Shown: positions 26,560-33,934 of the stretch, in pieces
How the letters are laid out: every line of letters begins with the position of its first letter
Position numbering within the stretch: position 1 is the first letter of the stretch
Assembly: GCF_000613285.1 (NCBI RefSeq)
Contig: NZ_BAIN01000023.1
Location: 1 to 38,048 of the forward strand
Length of the DNA: 38,048 bases
Direction of reading: 5' to 3'
DNA from: Acetobacter papayae JCM 25143
GTDB lineage: Bacteria; Pseudomonadota; Alphaproteobacteria; Acetobacterales; Acetobacteraceae
Program-made: the position numbers and the translations under genes
The notes under the pieces: model-generated
Told to the model about the DNA's origin: nothing
Database searches by the model: none
Seen by the model: only the letters and a program-made list of their open reading frames with translations

Positions 26560-27126
26560 CTAAAGCTGATTGGCAATGCGTCGATAGGACCGCGCCAGAC
26601 TGACATTCATCTCCGCGACGCTTTCGGAAAATGCTGTCGCATCTTGCGTGACCTGCGGGATCGTCAGCAGATCCGTATTCGAATGAATCGTCGTCGTGGA
26701 TGGAATATAGAATTCCGCAGGCAAGACGCAGTCCTCAACGACGGAGTTGTGTCTCACCACACAACCATGTTCGACCGTGCAGTTGAAAATCACGGAATTG
26801 AAGCCAACGAATACCTCGTCTCCAACAGTGCAGGGACCGTGAATAATCGAGCGATGGGCGATTGAAGTGCGCGATCCGATTGTCACGGCCGCACCATCTT
26901 TCGAGTGGATGACAACACCATCCTGAATGTTTGATCCACTCCCGATCCGGATGGGCTCGACATGGCCATTTTTATCGGCTTCATCGGCACGAATGACGGC
27001 ATAGGGGCCGATGAAGACATCGTCCTCGACAATCACATGACCGCACAGGATCGCGGTCGGGTCGACAAAGGCGCTTTCAGAAACAACGGGGAAATCACCA
27101 CGCGGATTTGGTCTCAGCATAGCCAC
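26560..27126 (-). CDS. Gamma-class carbonic anhydrase-like protein (CamH type)
   Basis: A 188-residue left-handed beta-helix protein of repeated hexapeptides (IGSGSNIQDG, VTIGSRTSIAHRS). The three metal ligands of gamma carbonic anhydrases are in place: H74 (VVIHSKDG), H91 (IAHRS) and H96 (IIHG), with the usual 5-residue gap between the last two. It lacks the acidic loop of the archaeal Cam enzyme, so it is CamH-like. The start is GTG at 27126 with AAGGAG seven bases ahead. It is the last gene of the folE-hisI-zigA-adh-camH operon, 11 bp after adh. Gamma enzymes can use iron instead of zinc, which would suit a zinc-limited cell; that point is inference. Catalysis of CO2 hydration is not assured for all members. 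Confidence 0.85.
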   Translation of the reverse strand: MAMLRPNPRGDFPVVSESAFVDPTAILCGHVIVEDDVFIGPYAVIRADEADKNGHVEPIRIGSGSNIQDGVVIHSKDGAAVTIGSRTSIAHRSIIHGPCTVGDEVFVGFNSVIFNCTVEHGCVVRHNSVVEDCVLPAEFYIPSTTTIHSNTDLLTIPQVTQDATAFSESVAEMNVSLARSYRRIANQL

Positions 27127-27137
27127 GTTTCGTCTCC

Positions 27138-28301
27138 TTAAAGATCGGTCAGAATTACGCCAGGCAGGTCATTCGACAGGGTTTCGCCTGGCTGATAGTG
27201 CATGACAGAGCGAATGGCCTCTCCCCGATGCAGAAGATCAAATGCTGTATTGATCCGGTCATGCGTCATGTTATGGGTGATGTAGGGATCGACGCTGAAC
27301 TTGCCCGCCAGCCATTCATCGACCATGCCGGGCAACTGCGAACGCCCTTTTACGCCCCCAAAGGCCGTGCCCCGCCAGACCCGCCCTGTGATCAACTGGA
27401 AAGGCCGCGTCGAGATCTCCTCGCCAGCCCCAGCGACACCGATGATCGTGCATTCGCCCCAGCCTTTATGGCAACACTCAAGGGCCGCACGCATGACATC
27501 GACCCGACCGATCGCCTCAAAGGAATAATCCACGCCGCCCCCCGTCATCTCCACGATCACTTTCTGGATTGGATCGGTATGATCGATCGGATTGACGAGA
27601 TCGGTCGCACCCAGATTTCGGGCCAGCAGGAACTTGGCTGGATTGGTGTCAATGCCGATGATCCTTGCGGCACCAGCCATGACAGCCCCCTGAATGACGG
27701 CCATGCCAATCGCGCCGAGACCAAAGACAGCCACGGTCGAGCCCGGCTCCACCTTCGCGGCGTTCCGCACAGCACCCATACCTGTCGGGACGGCGCACCC
27801 CATGACGCTGGCTTTGGCAAGCGGCGCATCTTTAGTGATCTTCGCCACGGCAATTTCGGGCAGCACGGTGTATTCGCTGAACGTGCTGGTGCCCATGTAA
27901 TGAAAGATCTGCCGGCCCTTGTATGAAAAACGGCTGGTGCCGTCTGGCATCAGCCCAAGCGCCTGTGTCTCACGGATGGTCGAGCAGAGATTGGTCTTGC
28001 CCGAGCGGATCATTGGGCAGTTCGGGTCTTCGGGAATATAGAGCGGAATGACATGATCACCTGGGACAACAGAGGTGACGCCTTTGCCGACATCCTCGAC
28101 GATACCCACCCCTTCATGACCGAGAATACACGGAAAGCGTCCTTCTGGATCATGCCCCGACAGGGTGAACATATCTGTATGACACAGGCTCGTGGTCACG
28201 ATGCGAACCAGAACCTCGCCCTCTTTCGGGCCTTCGAGATCAACCAGATCGATCTCAAGCGGCATGTTAGGTTCCCACGCAATAGCTGCTCGGGTTTTCA
28301 T
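27138..28301 (-). CDS. Class III alcohol dehydrogenase-like, altered structural zinc site
   Basis: A 387-residue medium-chain dehydrogenase close to S-(hydroxymethyl)glutathione dehydrogenase (FrmA/AdhC). Catalytic-zinc ligands are kept: C40 (SLCHTD), H62 (GHEGVG), C169 (VMGCAV). The NAD-binding GLGAIG is at 194-199, and [14 protein letters not shown] and [13 protein letters not shown] are class III signatures. The structural-zinc loop, normally C-x2-C-x2-C-x7-C, reads [16 protein letters not shown]. Positions 92 and 98 are therefore Asp and Ile, and only C95 and C106 remain, so this zinc should not bind normally. It starts at ATG 28301 with GAGGA 9 bp ahead. It sits 36 bp after zigA in the zinc operon. 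Formaldehyde or long-chain alcohol oxidation is expected; a zinc-sparing paralogue is inferred. Confidence 0.9.
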
Positions 28302-28337: not shown

Positions 28338-29566
28338 TCAGGCCGACTCAAGACTTTCCGGCTGACGGCGCCAAACCGGAAAGGGATCAGGAAGGCTTAC
28401 GTAGCGTGACGGCTCAAAAGCGGTGTCTCCGAGGTCCGGCACAAGACAGTCATCCAGTGCCCGACATAGGCCTGTTTCATCCATCTCCGCGGTGCCTATA
28501 AAGACGATTTCCTGACGCCGGTCGCCAAAGACCGGATCCCAGTTCCCCAACACGAAGTCGCGCCACTGATCGCTATCCGGCCAATCATTTTTCGGAATCG
28601 CGGCCCACCAAAGTCCCATCGCCTCGCTCCGCACAAGGCTCCGGCCTGACTCATTTCGCCCACCCAGTCCGGGCGCGTGGCCAGCCAGAAATGCCCCTTG
28701 GCGCGCACGACGCCAGACCAACTCCGATCAAGAAAGGCCTGGAATTTCGCGGGCTCGAACGGACGGCGCGCACGGTAGACAAAATTACGGATGCCATACT
28801 CGTCCGTTTCGGGAACATGATTGGCAAAGCCGTAGAGTTCCTTGAACCACAACGGATGCTGATGTGCCTTGTCGTAATCGAAACGCCCGGTATTCAGTAT
28901 CCGTTCAACTGGCACCTGCCCCATATCGGTATCGATGATATCGGCGTCCGAATTCAAGGCACGAATGATCTTCCGTGCCGCGTCTACCTGATTCGGCGTG
29001 GCGGTGGAGACCTTGTTTATCACCACGACATCGGCAAACTCGATCTGTTGGACGAGCAGATCGACCAGTGCGCGCTCATCGTCCTCGCCTGCTGTTTCGC
29101 CCCGATCCTTCAGGAAATCGCTAGAGGAATAGTCGCGTAGGAGATTGACCGCGTCCACGACCGTCACCATCGTATCTAGCCGTGCGATGTCGCTCAGGCT
29201 GACGCCATTCTCATCGCGGAACTCGAATGTGGCGGCAACGGGCAGCGGCTCTGCGATGCCAGTAGATTCGATGAGCAGATAATCGAATTTCTCTTCCTCC
29301 GCGAGCCGCCGCACTTCCTGCAACAGATCATCGCGCAGCGTGCAGCAGATGCAGCCATTGGTCATCTCGACCAGCTTCTCATCGGTGCGCGACAGATTAC
29401 TGCCGCCCTCACGCACCAGATCGGCGTCGATATTGACCTCGCTCATGTCGTTCACGATGACCGCGACCTTATAACCTTGGCGGTTATTCAACACATGATT
29501 GAGCAGAGTTGTCTTACCCGCGCCCAGAAAGCCAGACAGCACGGTAACGGGGAGCCTGTTGTCCAT
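28338..29566 (-). pseudogene. zigA: COG0523 GTPase metallochaperone (ZigA-like), one frameshift
   Basis: Starts [20 protein letters not shown] at 29566 behind a good GAGGAG. Walker A GFLGAGKT is at 12-19 and the metal-binding CxCC motif is C72-I-C74-C75 (NGCICC). [11 protein letters not shown] and VVVINKVS complete the G domain. The C-terminal CobW domain breaks near 28634: after MSQAGAL the frame must go back one base to give [19 protein letters not shown] and the rest, so one base is missing around CTTGTGCGG. The repaired protein is about 409 residues. Members of this subgroup are Zur-regulated and are thought to hand zinc to client enzymes using GTP. It lies 13 bp after hisI, central in the operon. 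Without the missing base it would lose most of the C-terminal domain. Confidence 0.88.
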
Positions 29567-29579
29567 AGGTGTTTCTCCT

Positions 29580-30089
29580 CTAGAGCTGCGTCGGGTTTGG
29601 GACGTCGCCATAGACAGCGACCGGATCAAAGGTTTTGTGCGTTTCGCAAAAGACGAGTTCTGTTGATGACGCTGAAACGACTTCATCAGTAGGGAGATCG
29701 ACACGCCGGTAAAAACAGCTTCGATAACCCACATGGCAGTTCGCTCCTGTGCCCGCAGTGCGCACGCGCAGCCAGACTGCGTCCTGATCGTCGTCGATCC
29801 TCATTTCGATGACATGCTGGATCAACCCGCTCGTGGCACCTTTCCGCCAGAGGCACTGGCGACTTCGGCTCCAGTAATGCGCCTCTCGGGTTTCGATGGT
29901 ACGGGCGAGCGCCTCAGCGTTCATGACGCCGACCATCATGACATCACCGCTCTCTGCGTCTGTCGTGACCACGGTCAGCAGTCCGCTAGCGTCGAAACGC
30001 GGGGCAAGATCGCTTCCTTCCTCGACCTGCTCGATAGAGACGCGCTTCCGGAATGCGGTTGATGCGAAAAAGACAGTTGCGCCCGTCAT
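29580..30089 (-). CDS. hisI: Phosphoribosyl-AMP cyclohydrolase (HisI), zinc-ligand variant
   Basis: A 169-residue HisI that opens the purine ring of PR-AMP in histidine synthesis. Recognised by [18 protein letters not shown] and [15 protein letters not shown]. The zinc cysteines C118 and C125 remain. The canonical DCDxD motif is D99-D-D-Q-D103, so the third zinc Cys is Asp100. The spacing to C118 is two residues longer than usual. The start overlaps the folE stop by 4 bp (ATGA). Extra residues C79, C148 and H151 occur and could compensate. A chromosomal hisI surely exists elsewhere, so this is a paralogue, probably expressed when zinc is scarce; that is inference from context and the altered site. 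Confidence 0.88.
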
Positions 30090-30696
30090 ACGCCCCCCAT
30101 TCCTGCCATAGCGAAGAACTGGCGACGCAAGGGTTCCGACGTCTCGAACTCGCCCAGCAGGCGACTGGTGACCATGCTCACACCCGGCTTATGCACCCCA
30201 CGTGTGGTCATGCACTGATGCGCCGCGTCGATCACGACTGCGACGCCGCGCGGCTGAAGAACGCTCTGGATTGTATCAGCGATCTGCGCCGTCAGTTTTT
30301 CCTGAATCTGAAGGCGATGGGCGAAGACGTCCACGAGACGCGCCAGCTTGCTGATGCCAACCACCCGCCTGTCGGCAGGTAAGCCACATGCGCCTTACCG
30401 ATCAGCGGAATGATATGATGTTCACAATGGGATTCCAGCCGAATGTCGCGCAGCACCACCATTTCGTTATAGTTTCCGGTCTCTTCGAAGGTCCGCTCCA
30501 GAAGAGCGACCGGATCATCCTGATACCCCTCGAAAAACTCTTCATAGGCCCGCACCACACGGTCAGGCGTGCCGACAAGCCCCTCGCGATCAGGATTATC
30601 TCCGGTCCAGGCGAGCAGAGTCCGCACCGCCTCTTCTGCCTGGGCCCGTGTCGGTCGCGCCCGGACTTTCCGGGCCGTTTCAATCAGTGCGTCCAT
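30086..30696 (-). pseudogene. folE: GTP cyclohydrolase I (FolE), one frameshift
   Basis: First enzyme of tetrahydrofolate synthesis. The first frame gives [13 protein letters not shown] and [26 protein letters not shown] with zinc ligands C91 and H94. The frame then shifts at about 30376, where GGCGGGTGG lacks one base. The second frame continues [25 protein letters not shown] and DAAHQCMTTRGV, holding the remaining zinc Cys. Repaired length is about 203 residues. This is the zinc-dependent FolE1 type and not the zinc-independent FolE2 found in many zinc-starvation regulons. The gene starts 34 bp from the shared Zur-like box (GGATGAGG as ribosome binding site) and is the first of the minus-strand operon. 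Confidence 0.88.
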
Positions 30697-30729
30697 TCAG
30701 CCTCATCCCGTCATTGACTATGTTATGTT

Positions 30730-30746
30730 ATGTTATAATATAACAT
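30730..30746. promoter_or_regulatory. Zur-box-like palindrome in divergent promoter
   Basis: ATGTTATAATATAACAT, a 17-bp palindrome with one central base, matching the core of proteobacterial Zur sites (ATGTTATANTATAACAT). Extra ATGTT units precede it. It overlaps a candidate -10 (TATAAT, 30734-30739); TTGACT at 30714-30719 could be a -35 but the 14-bp spacing is short. Repressor bound here would block both the folE and the DUF1826 operon. Confidence 0.85.
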
Positions 30747-30783
30747 TATGGGTGTCAGCCACTTCCCGTCAAGCTCCGGAACC

Positions 30784-31512
30784 ATGCCTATTTTCACACA
30801 GCCTCAGCCAACGGCGGAAATCTCACGTCTTTCATCACCGAAACCAGAAACTCCGGTCTTCAACGATCAGGAGCGTCCCGGTGCCATGTTGTTCATGGAG
30901 AGCTGGCCCGCGCCAAAGGTCGACGCGGCTAAAGACGCCGCCTTAACCTGTCCCGCCCCGCATGTGGTCGCCTGTGCCCACGCGGCAGTCGTGATGGATC
31001 TGAAACGGCCCGATGTTGATATGGTCGTATGGGGCCGCAGGGTTCCAGCAGCATGGGAGATATCCCTCACAGAGTGGTCGGGCTCCCCGTCTCCCCTCAC
31101 TCTCTTCGGTACGCCTTCGGAGATCGCGGATTGCCTTGAGACCCCGGCTGTGCGTCAGGATTGGCCTCCCGTCATTCTGACTGATGTCAGGGATCTGTCC
31201 TCTCTGTTCGGTGTTCTGACAGGAGGCGTCCGGCAGCACATCCGACTGATGACGCCCCCTAGTGGTGAAGCTGCGTTCGAATTGCCCCCCGATGTACTCA
31301 GGCTGATCTGTGGCTATGGGCACACCGGGGCGGAGTGGTGCAGCAGTCAGGACCCGAAGAGCGGCATTGTCAGTGCCCTGTCGTCTTTCGCCGTTGCGTT
31401 TATCAAGGGCGCGGCTGAAAGCGAATCTGGCTGCTTCCATCGTCTCCCGGCCAATGTCCCAAACGGTCCGATGCCGGGGACAATCCTTATGATGGATACA
31501 GTTTCCCGATGA
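30784..31512 (+). CDS. DUF1826 domain protein
   Basis: A protein of about 242 residues. The in-frame ATG at 30748 lies almost inside the Zur-like box, leaving no room for promoter and leader, so 30784 is preferred. The C-terminal half has the family's LRLICGYGHTGAEWC, VAFIKGAAES and GCFHRLPANVP blocks; the histidine-bearing C-x2-FH stretch common in relatives is replaced by SGEAAFELPPD. DUF1826 genes are frequent neighbours of COG0523 chaperones and Zur sites; biochemical function is unknown. It is the first gene of the plus-strand operon, and its stop overlaps the zur-like start by 4 bp. Confidence 0.75.
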   Translation: MPIFTQPQPTAEISRLSSPKPETPVFNDQERPGAMLFMESWPAPKVDAAKDAALTCPAPHVVACAHAAVVMDLKRPDVDMVVWGRRVPAAWEISLTEWSGSPSPLTLFGTPSEIADCLETPAVRQDWPPVILTDVRDLSSLFGVLTGGVRQHIRLMTPPSGEAAFELPPDVLRLICGYGHTGAEWCSSQDPKSGIVSALSSFAVAFIKGAAESESGCFHRLPANVPNGPMPGTILMMDTVSR

Positions 31513-32015
31513 AAGAACGTGTCACACGGCCTTCTCGCAGCGTCGATCCGGTTTCCAATACCCCAAATGGCCGGACCACGTCTTTGCTGAGTGATGTGCT
31601 CGATGCGCTTACTAAAACAGATTTACCGTTATCAGCTTACGATATCCTCCGGTGTGTCAGTCGTCCGGATAGCCGCCCCCTCGCCCCGCCTACAATTTAT
31701 AGGGCCCTGGAAAAGCTGATCGCCGATGGGCTCGTCGGACGGCTCGAAAGTCGAAATGCCTTCGTTCGGATCCAGACAAGCAATCCGTCGCGCCTCGTCT
31801 ACTGTATCTGCGATCGATGTGGCGCCGCTCAGGCGGTGGAAAACACGCCATCCTGTCAGTTGATCGACAGCGCAGCCGAGACCCTTGGTTTCCAGGTCAG
31901 GCATCGGGTGATGGAATTACAGGGCGTCTGCGCGCAGTGCATTACCCGTCCTTCTTTCTCGCCCGCGTCTCAACACCCCCTACAGAACGACCTTCCGGCA
32001 CGCGCCCCCAAATGA
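31509..32015 (+). CDS. zur: Zur-like Fur-family regulator
   Basis: A 168-residue winged-helix regulator. The recognition region is PLSAYDILRCVSRPDSRPLAPPTIYRALEKLIADGLVGRLES. The structural Cys4 zinc site is present (C101-D-R-C104 and C141-A-Q-C144). In E. coli Zur the sensing site uses Cys and His in the hinge before the first CxxC. Here that hinge is NAFVRIQTSNPSRLVYCI, with no His and only C99. The regulatory zinc site therefore appears lost or changed. It overlaps both neighbours by 4 bp (ATGA), so it is tightly coupled to DUF1826 and thrS. It probably acts on the palindrome at 30730 and so on its own operon. It may be a second Zur-like copy beside a chromosomal Zur. Confidence 0.85.
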   Translation: MKERVTRPSRSVDPVSNTPNGRTTSLLSDVLDALTKTDLPLSAYDILRCVSRPDSRPLAPPTIYRALEKLIADGLVGRLESRNAFVRIQTSNPSRLVYCICDRCGAAQAVENTPSCQLIDSAAETLGFQVRHRVMELQGVCAQCITRPSFSPASQHPLQNDLPARAPK

Positions 32016-33934
32016 GCCGCGGCCCTCTTATCGCCCTTATTCGTCAAGGTTCTCCCATGTCATTGACCACCATCGCTTCCCGTTCCGCATCACATTCCCC
32101 AAAGGATGTTCTCGCCCGCCGTGTGAACGGGATTATCATCGATCTCACCACGCCTACATCCGGAGACCGACCATCTGACCCTGTCTGCCGTGCGGACGCC
32201 GATGCCCTTCCCCTGCTCCGTCACGACACAGCACACGTCCTCGCACAAGCGGTCAGCGAACTGTTTTCCGATACCGCACTCGCGACAGGACCTGCCACAG
32301 AGCACGGATTTTTCTACGATTTCGCTGCTGAGCACACCTTCACGGATGATGACCTCGTCCGGATCGAAGCCCGTATGCATGAGATCGTCGACCGGGACGA
32401 AACGATCGTCAGGGAGGAATGGGATCGCGAGACAGCGCTTTCCTGGTGCAGGGAAAATGGACAGCCCTACAAGGCCGAGATCATCCGATCTTTGCCTGCA
32501 GATGCCGTCCTGAGCTTTTACCGGCAGGGCGGCTTCGTCGATCTCTGCCGGGGACCGCATCTCGCCAGCACAGGACAGATCGGACACGCCTTTCGGCTTC
32601 TCGGTACGGCTGGTGCTTACTGGAAAGGCGATCGGAACAATCCAATGCTCCAGAGGATTCACGGCACGGCCTGTCGTGACGCCGACGAACTGGCAGCTTG
32701 GGAGCGGTGTCAGGAAGAAGCTGCACGGCGCGATCATCGCCGTCTCGGGCGTGAGATGGATCTGTTCCATTTCCAGCCTGAAGCACCGGGAGCGGTATTC
32801 TGGCACCCGAACGGCTGGACACTATTCCAGACTCTTCTCGCTTATCTGCGCGAGCGCCAGCAGGCCGAGAACTATGTGGAGATCAATACACCAGACATTA
32901 TGGATCTGTCTCTCTGGCAGACTTCCGGTCATTGGGAGAAATTCGGGGAAAACATGTTCACCACTGAGACCGAGGGCCGTACCTACGCCATCAAACCCAT
33001 GAATTGCCCTGGTGGTGTGCAGGTTTTCCGTCATGGCTTGAAGAGCTATCGCGACCTGCCCCTACGGATGGCTGAATTCGGTAAGGTTCATCGCTTCGAA
33101 CCGTCGGGGGCACTGCATGGCCTCATGCGCGTGCGCGCATTCACACAGGATGACGCGCATATTTTCTGTACGCCAGAGCAGATGGAGGCCGAGACACAGC
33201 GGATCTGCCATCTCGTGCTTTCGATCTATAAGGATTTTGGCTTCGACGATGTCCGTATCAAATTCTCCGACCGACCTGAAAAACGTGTCGGATCGGACGA
33301 TATCTGGGACCGCTCGGAAAAAGCGTTACAGCGCGGGGTCGAAGCTTCAGGCCTTTCCTACACGCGTAATCCAGGAGAAGGCGCCTTTTACGGCCCCAAG
33401 CTGGAGTTCGTATTGCGTGATGCAATCGGACGAGATTGGCAGTGCGGTACCGTTCAGGTCGATCTCAATCTGCCTCAACGTCTAGACGCTCATTATATTG
33501 GTACGGATGGGGACAAGCATGCGCCCGTCATGCTGCACCGCGCCCTGTTCGGTTCGCTGGAACGCTTCATCGGCATTCTCCTTGAACACCATGCCGGCCA
33601 CCTGCCTTTCTGGCTCGCACCTGTTCAGGTCGTGGTAGCGACGATCACCGTCGCTGCAGACGCTTACGCGCACGATCTAGCCGACACGCTCCGCCAGCGT
33701 GGCATCCGCGTTGCATCTGATCTGCGTAACGAGAAAATTGCTTACAAGATCCGCGAGCACAGCCTCGCGAAAGTGCCCTTGCTGCTGATCGTCGGAAAGA
33801 AGGAAGAGCAAGCGGGAACCGTCTCCATCCGGGAATATGGAAATCCAGAAACGCCAACAATGAGCACGGATACGGCCATCAACAGGCTGATCAATGCATC
33901 GTATTGTCGCCTGACGCGGGTCTTTGACGTATGA
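32012..33934 (+). CDS. thrS: Threonyl-tRNA synthetase paralogue, short TGS domain
   Basis: Class II synthetase charging tRNA-Thr. The start at 32012 overlaps the zur stop as ATGA, like the previous gene pair; ATG 32057 behind AAGG is the alternative. Residue numbers below are from 32057. The editing domain has H56-x3-H60 and C164-x3-H168. The catalytic zinc ligands are C317 (MNCPG), H368 (DDAHIF) and H494 (VMLHRA), all intact. Class II motif 2 (FGKVHRFEPSG) and the C-terminal anticodon-binding domain (RVASDLRNEKIAYKIREH) are complete. The N-terminal TGS domain is about 17 residues shorter than in E. coli (H56 against H73). Zinc-regulated extra thrS genes are known, for example in cyanobacteria. 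Last gene of the plus-strand operon. Confidence 0.93.
   Translation: MSRGPLIALIRQGSPMSLTTIASRSASHSPKDVLARRVNGIIIDLTTPTSGDRPSDPVCRADADALPLLRHDTAHVLAQAVSELFSDTALATGPATEHGFFYDFAAEHTFTDDDLVRIEARMHEIVDRDETIVREEWDRETALSWCRENGQPYKAEIIRSLPADAVLSFYRQGGFVDLCRGPHLASTGQIGHAFRLLGTAGAYWKGDRNNPMLQRIHGTACRDADELAAWERCQEEAARRDHRRLGREMDLFHFQPEAPGAVFWHPNGWTLFQTLLAYLRERQQAENYVEINTPDIMDLSLWQTSGHWEKFGENMFTTETEGRTYAIKPMNCPGGVQVFRHGLKSYRDLPLRMAEFGKVHRFEPSGALHGLMRVRAFTQDDAHIFCTPEQMEAETQRICHLVLSIYKDFGFDDVRIKFSDRPEKRVGSDDIWDRSEKALQRGVEASGLSYTRNPGEGAFYGPKLEFVLRDAIGRDWQCGTVQVDLNLPQRLDAHYIGTDGDKHAPVMLHRALFGSLERFIGILLEHHAGHLPFWLAPVQVVVATITVAADAYAHDLADTLRQRGIRVASDLRNEKIAYKIREHSLAKVPLLLIVGKKEEQAGTVSIREYGNPETPTMSTDTAINRLINASYCRLTRVFDV

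Follow-up and report, generated by a model that had tools for sequence, protein, structure and literature searches.

Class III alcohol dehydrogenases (ADHs), which remove formaldehyde, carry one catalytic and one structural zinc per subunit. A 38,048-nucleotide contig of Acetobacter papayae JCM 25143 (NZ_BAIN01000023.1, analysed in full and hereafter called the window) encodes a class III ADH paralogue in which the lobe for the structural zinc is altered. The question raised by this locus is whether the paralogue is a zinc-saving enzyme, as a preliminary description of the DNA had proposed. The comparisons made here support that reading, and we consider it likely that this class III ADH is under Zur control and spares zinc, the structural zinc having been lost and the catalytic one kept.

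The ADH gene is located at 27138..28301 on the minus strand and is an open frame of 387 aa. Its product scored 622.2 bits against TIGR02818 (class III ADH / S-(hydroxymethyl)glutathione dehydrogenase; NCBIfam cut-off 543.95) and thus belongs to this family. The homology to canonical class III ADH / GSNO reductase (TIGR02818; PDB 4dl9, 1teh, and 7aas) extends over the full length, with 58-60% identity in the structural matches, and the catalytic zinc ligands, DPEG, R110, T112, and Q113 are common to both. The window ADH differs in that two of the four cysteines are exchanged, a C-terminal extension of ~16 residues is present, and the gene lies in a zinc-starvation locus. Instead of the four-cysteine structural-zinc lobe of class III ADH, translation gave E-D92-P-N-C95-P-M-I98-R-S-G-K-T-N-L-C106. 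The codons of this remodelled lobe (27984..28028, minus strand) are 28026-28028 for D92, 28017-28019 for C95, 28008-28010 for I98, and 27984-27986 for C106. The preliminary description had named these four residues exactly; the span that it gave, 27990..28040, covers D92, C95, and I98, but C106 lies just outside. The exchange of two lobe cysteines suggests a need for one zinc atom, not two.

The catalytic zinc ligands C40 (28182..28184), H62 (28116-28118, with E63), and C169 (27795-27797), all on the minus strand, are retained in the translation and the alignment, as had also been claimed. These C/H/C ligands were kept in 49/49 D-C-I-C proteins and 46/46 canonical proteins. D51 and E53 were present in all 49 members of the D-C-I-C clade, and R110 was invariant in all 81 aligned proteins; we take these three positions to be the glutathione-adduct pocket, equivalent to human Asp56, Glu57, and Arg115. 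Twenty alignment columns separate the clade from the canonical copies. They include D92, P93, I98, positions of the C-terminal extension, and A170 and P172 beside the catalytic C169. D92 and I98 occurred in 49/49 clade members and cysteines at the same positions in 46/46 canonical copies, 40 of the 49 being from genomes selected for the lobe. The C-terminal extension (about residues 371-387) was seen in the zinc clade and was absent from the canonical and Binatia-type copies compared. An AlphaFold model was built from the 81 aligned proteins. Its overall fold was usable (mean pLDDT 78.4), and the best Foldseek match was GSNOR 7aas. pLDDT was below 50 at residues 90-92 and 97-105; hence, the model says nothing of the lobe geometry. 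The low values are probably due to an alignment made up solely of D-C-I-C proteins.

The setting of the gene was described beforehand as a zinc-limitation operon, and its neighbours bear this out. The minus-strand gene order is folE, hisI, a ZigA-type COG0523 gene, ADH, and a gamma-carbonic anhydrase-like gene. FolE (GTP cyclohydrolase I; 30089..30696, minus strand) was recognized by family match and tblastn in two frames with a break near 30375. The HisI paralogue (29580..30089, minus strand) was identified from the family profile and motif comparison. The ZigA-type COG0523 GTPase (28341..29566, minus strand) also lies in two frames, with a break within about 28630-28700. It gave two tblastn pieces, and its N-terminal part scored 529 bits against NF038288 (cut-off 600). 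The gamma-class carbonic anhydrase-like hexapeptide protein (26560..27126, minus strand) had hexapeptide family matches and was 95% identical to a Gluconobacter plasmid 'carbonate dehydratase'. Divergent genes on the plus strand encode a DUF1826 protein (30748..31512; PF08856), a Zur-like Fur-family regulator (31509..32015; PF01475; 73.5 bits against NF008646 for Zur, under its cut-off of 167), and a ThrS paralogue (32057..33934; TIGR00418, 655 bits; 90% to an Acetobacter plasmid copy). The operon is linked to COG0523, Zur, and zinc-related genes. A perfect Zur-box-like palindrome, ATGTTATAATATAACAT, lies at 30730..30746 between the divergent transcripts, at the head of the operon; the palindrome scan gave another site at 30725-30741, which overlaps the first and has 2 mismatches. 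Two Zur-box-like sites with at most 3 mismatches were found versus 0.04 expected, and the perfect palindrome is a candidate Zur box of the operon. A search of the whole window against Rfam at gathering scores gave no match.

As assembled here, folE and zigA each run over two frames, but plasmid relatives have them whole, so that either decay or draft error may be the cause. The ADH could likewise be a decaying gene on a mobile element, and its lobe change damage of the same kind; a frame break in the ADH of Gluconobacter oxydans ATCC 9937 and an ADH remnant on an Acetobacter plasmid fit this. We regard this explanation as highly improbable, since the lobe is common to a clade spanning Alpha- and Gammaproteobacteria, the catalytic residues are intact, and the comparison of the window ADH with the Gluconobacter cadivus copy gave dN 0.010 and dS 0.28, a dN/dS of about 0.04. 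Judged by this ratio, the ADH is under purifying selection. A pseudogene was ruled out by the dN/dS together with the conserved catalytic residues.

The conservation of the lobe was assessed with homologs found by similarity. In a tblastn search of plasmids, the best 60 of 4315 matches were inspected. The nine top records were three from Gluconobacter (96.7-97.9%; two of the three proteins identical) and six from Rhodobacterales (79-82%), and the tenth was at 70%. The D-C-I-C lobe was present in 9/9 of these best-ranked records, with C95 and C106 retained throughout. The plasmid ADH of G. oxydans ATCC 9937 has its frame break close to its end. Genomes were searched in draws of 150 Acetobacteraceae, 385 Alphaproteobacteria, 17 genomes from the family of G296, 295 from the family of G532, and 398 from the phylum; the draws overlap, and short fragments would be missed under the strict E-value limits. 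Besides the window, 13 rows representing 12 distinct genes matched at 76% identity or more, and all 13 had D-C-I-C, with C95 and C106 conserved; one of the copies, L262, came from a genome chosen as the centre of a similarity search. A chance or lone mutation was ruled out by this conservation in 9/9 plasmid and 13/13 genome matches. The 44 remoter matches whose DNA was compared (at most 71% identity), among them a second class III ADH of A. papayae itself, had all four cysteines. The Binatia/Desulfurellaceae group is a known exception, being remoter relatives with D-C-I-C. In the Acetobacteraceae draw, the window copy was the sole clade member among 150 genomes, and the next match was at 67%. 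On these searches, the clade is patchy but sharply bounded. Phage relatives reached 63% at best among the matches listed and are not relevant. The second ADH of A. papayae (draft genome of 3.04 Mb in 177 contigs) is a fragment at a contig end with the four cysteines (ECRECKSC...C), so that the same genome contains a zinc-rich isozyme.

To survey the spread of the lobe, genome contigs were searched with a degenerate DNA pattern encoding it; at least 118 loci were found, all reading EDPxCxxIxSGKTNLC. Because the pattern fixes the lobe, these loci show spread and context, never conservation. They came from Acetobacteraceae, Rhodobacterales, Rhizobiales, Halomonadaceae, Salinisphaera, Pseudomonas, and some metagenome-assembled genomes (MAGs) of other phyla. 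Among the 118 listed loci, 111 were at least 75% identical to the window ADH and seven were at 68-71%. Twelve of the 13 rows found by similarity were also caught by the pattern, the exception (L269) reading GRTNLC; such an overlap is expected if the lobe is constant.

The genomic context was then compared within genomes. From the pattern set, 43 genomes were chosen for diversity, and their class III matches were excised with 9 kb on each side, contig permitting; two partial matches of one genome (G571) were left out. The excised copies were 40 of the main type (at least 77% over the full length, about 385 aa), three of the Binatia/Desulfurellaceae type, and 46 canonical ones, all C-C-C-C. COG0523, Zur, DUF1826, HisI, ThrS, CysS, FolE, gamma-CA, Znu/Azt, DUF1007, and HflD-like proteins served as zinc markers, called by tblastn at bit thresholds that we set. 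In these lobe-selected genomes, markers were found within 9 kb of 31/40 main-type, 0/3 Binatia-type, and 2/46 canonical copies (Fisher p 6e-13 for main-type versus canonical), and strict markers near 31/40 D-C-I-C versus 1/46 canonical copies. Accordingly, 44 of the 46 canonical copies had no zinc marker in their vicinity. Both exceptions were in G. cadivus, one ~10 kb from the zinc copy on the same contig and the other adjoining an ordinary hisI. Homologs with four cysteines in the same operon would speak against zinc saving; none was present among the operon copies examined, which have D-C-I-C instead (40 of them from lobe-selected genomes). A further set was assembled from similarity matches, and in it markers were near 7/11 clade copies versus 0/8 canonical ones. 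Ten of these 11 clade genes had been caught by the pattern as well.

A Zur-box-like site (at least 12/16 matching, at most 400 bp upstream of ADH) was found for 20/41 main-type genes (the 40 plus L290) versus 0/46 canonical genes; shuffle means were 0.3 and 0.2, respectively (p 1e-8). A wider count gave 22/51 versus 1/57 canonical genes, and that one was AT-rich. A marker or a Zur-box-like site of its own accompanied 37/40 D-C-I-C versus 2/46 canonical copies. No marker was found within 9 kb of 9/40 clade copies (4/11 in the similarity-found set), and three of the 40 (L175, L198, and L207) had neither a marker nor a 12/16 box. Another class III match was found in 36 of the 40 main-type genomes, one of them merely partial, and four were without. 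As the rows share descent, the p-values of 6e-13 and 1e-8 overstate their independence. The within-genome pairing is a stronger argument than the p-values.

In a tree computed without the lobe columns, a branch with SH-aLRT 100 set the 49 main-type rows, including the window, apart from all others. By this tree, the D-C-I-C copies are one clade, which spans Alpha- and Gammaproteobacteria and includes acetic acid bacteria, halomonads, and Pseudomonas. The three Binatia-type copies examined were 69-71% identical, 369 aa long, and also had the D-C-I-C lobe. In the quick tree, they stood apart from the zinc clade. A tree forcing the two together was better by lnL +13.45 (p-AU 0.694), so a single origin of the lobe is possible. 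Independent loss of the lobe in Binatia, suggested by the quick-tree placement, was not favoured, given the higher likelihood of the joined tree. In five Binatia/Desulfurellaceae MAG loci (L053, L087, L210, L215, and L216), D-C-I-C was the sole class III match; the ADH of L216 has LytB and acyl-CoA dehydrogenase genes as neighbours. Zinc markers were near 0/3 of the Binatia/Desulfurellaceae copies examined, and hence the rebuilt lobe is not linked to zinc loci everywhere.

These single copies with the lobe and no zinc markers nearby, and the likelier joined tree, would also suit an explanation in which the lobe change is a neutral trait of the subfamily and the gene sits in Zur loci as an extra copy of a zinc enzyme, not as a zinc saver. 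ThrS and FolE of the window seem, by eye, to retain their ligands at the positions that we assumed for them, which points the same way. In Haas 2009 (PMC2770081), copy number is likewise offered for paralogues that kept their zinc residues. Against neutrality, D92 and I98 are fixed in the clade, as noted above for the partly lobe-selected set. Earlier work cited in PMC9895041 further reports that alanine in place of any of the four cysteines of human beta-beta and chi-chi ADH or bacterial phenylacetaldehyde reductase led to no expression or to <4% activity. In view of these reported effects, the lobe change is unlikely to be neutral, and we regard the extra-copy explanation as improbable.

The HisI of the same operon has undergone a similar change. 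Its motif is DDDQDA, versus DCDGDA in PDB 1zps and DCDADA in the chromosomal HisI of A. papayae. DDDQDA was found in 23 of the 24 pattern loci with a HisI match, the exception being Pseudomonas putida (L165), and in 43/47 of all scanned, overlapping loci. The exchanged Cys of the DCD motif is presumably a zinc ligand of HisI. At the level of their motifs, HisI and ADH of the zinc loci share one kind of exchange, Cys to Asp.

D92 together with C95 and C106 could form a weak or three-ligand metal site. A further explanation is that the lobe still binds a metal through these three residues, with a water molecule or the backbone supplying a further ligand, but less tightly or with a preference for a different metal (Fe, Co, or Mn); the paralogue would then be a metal-promiscuous variant that is perhaps served by the COG0523 GTPase. 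C95 and C106 are present in every clade member found by similarity (9/9 plasmid and 13/13 genome matches), and the Cys-to-Asp change of HisI suits a changed metal. Asp and Glu are, moreover, structural ligands in archaeal D-C-C-C and E-C-C-C enzymes according to PMC9895041. I98, in contrast, cannot be a ligand, so that three ligand side chains remain, and a disulphide or packing may also explain the kept cysteines. We think this metal-binding variant unlikely. The same source also states that a yeast xylitol dehydrogenase tolerated exchanges to Asp better than those to Ser, and it suggests that loss of the structural site begins with Asp; Asp at the first ligand position, D92, fits that proposal.

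The reading that we favour, that of a zinc-sparing enzyme, would work as follows. The ADH would be the zinc-starvation copy of S-hydroxymethylglutathione dehydrogenase / GSNO reductase. At low zinc, release of Zur from the palindrome (30730-30746) would allow transcription of the folE-hisI-zigA-adh-gammaCA operon. The catalytic zinc (C40/H62/C169) and the class III pocket residues would be retained, and the lobe, rebuilt as E-D-P-x-C-x-x-I-x-S-G-K-T-N-L-C, would fold with no structural zinc bound stably. The lobe may be held in place by D92 and the conserved residue P93, and perhaps by a C95-C106 disulphide. The same activity would be supplied with a single zinc per subunit rather than two, and the canonical four-cysteine copy would be used when zinc is plentiful. 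For the clade as a whole, we infer that its members would fold without stoichiometric structural zinc and act in zinc starvation. A bolder extension is that zinc loci of Alpha- and Gammaproteobacteria used one recipe twice, with Cys-to-Asp exchanges in class III ADH (C92 to D, accompanied by C98 to I) and in HisI (DCD to DDD), fold and activity being kept with half as much zinc or with a different metal, and that a C95-C106 disulphide replaces the structural zinc of the ADH and makes its lobe a zinc/redox switch. We consider this doubtful.

Known Zur-regulon systems offer a partial precedent. In PMC2770081 and PMC6103462, the zinc-independent paralogues FolE2, DksA, HemB2, PyrC2, and ribosomal proteins are likewise second copies of zinc proteins next to COG0523 or Zur genes with ligands lost. 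The window ADH differs from them in that, as judged from its residues, it would alter the structural zinc site alone and keep the catalytic zinc. Class III ADH is absent from the nine families of Haas 2009 (PMC2770081). ADH is named among zinc-free paralogues or Zur-regulated enzymes in PMC6103462, in which adhA is listed for two Corynebacterium species and adhP, in the activation column, for Neisseria. Corynebacterium adhA (PMC6103462, Table 3) is also an ADH in a Zur regulon; it is listed there as a zinc-dependent ADH, and the available text mentions neither membership of class III nor a lost lobe. The xylitol dehydrogenases of Pichia stipitis and Saccharomyces cerevisiae have lost the structural zinc and kept the catalytic one, with Asp among the replacements (PMC9895041). 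They differ from the window ADH in belonging to another subfamily, and the available part of that source does not connect them with zinc regulation.

The preliminary description had stated that no zinc-sparing class III ADH in a Zur-type operon was known. This stands for the literature searched, which included the available parts of PMC2770081, PMC6103462, PMC5387054, and PMC9895041: no Zur-associated class III ADH lacking the structural site was found in it. ADHs in general have already been named as Zur-regulated (PMC6103462). A literature search for 'lacks structural zinc' together with ADH found nothing. An RNA-seq study of zinc in Paracoccus denitrificans does not use the word 'dehydrogenase' in its main text; its strain may or may not carry the gene. 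In the zinc-sparing paralogues described in the sources available, the zinc site of the counterpart is missing; here, a two-zinc enzyme family seems to drop the structural zinc alone. The clade lives without two cysteines that are reported to be essential in human ADHs, class III included, and the way its lobe is built may reveal how such a zinc becomes dispensable.

The zinc loci vary in other respects. On an Acetobacter pasteurianus plasmid (L012), the zinc operon is present, but of the ADH only residues 227-387 remain, split over two frames, and a hypothetical ORF is annotated in its place. In the Rhodobacterales loci L013-L018, a GlxA/AraC-family regulator is divergent from ADH, and a GlxA-like match of at least 150 bits occurred in 14 of 40 wider loci.
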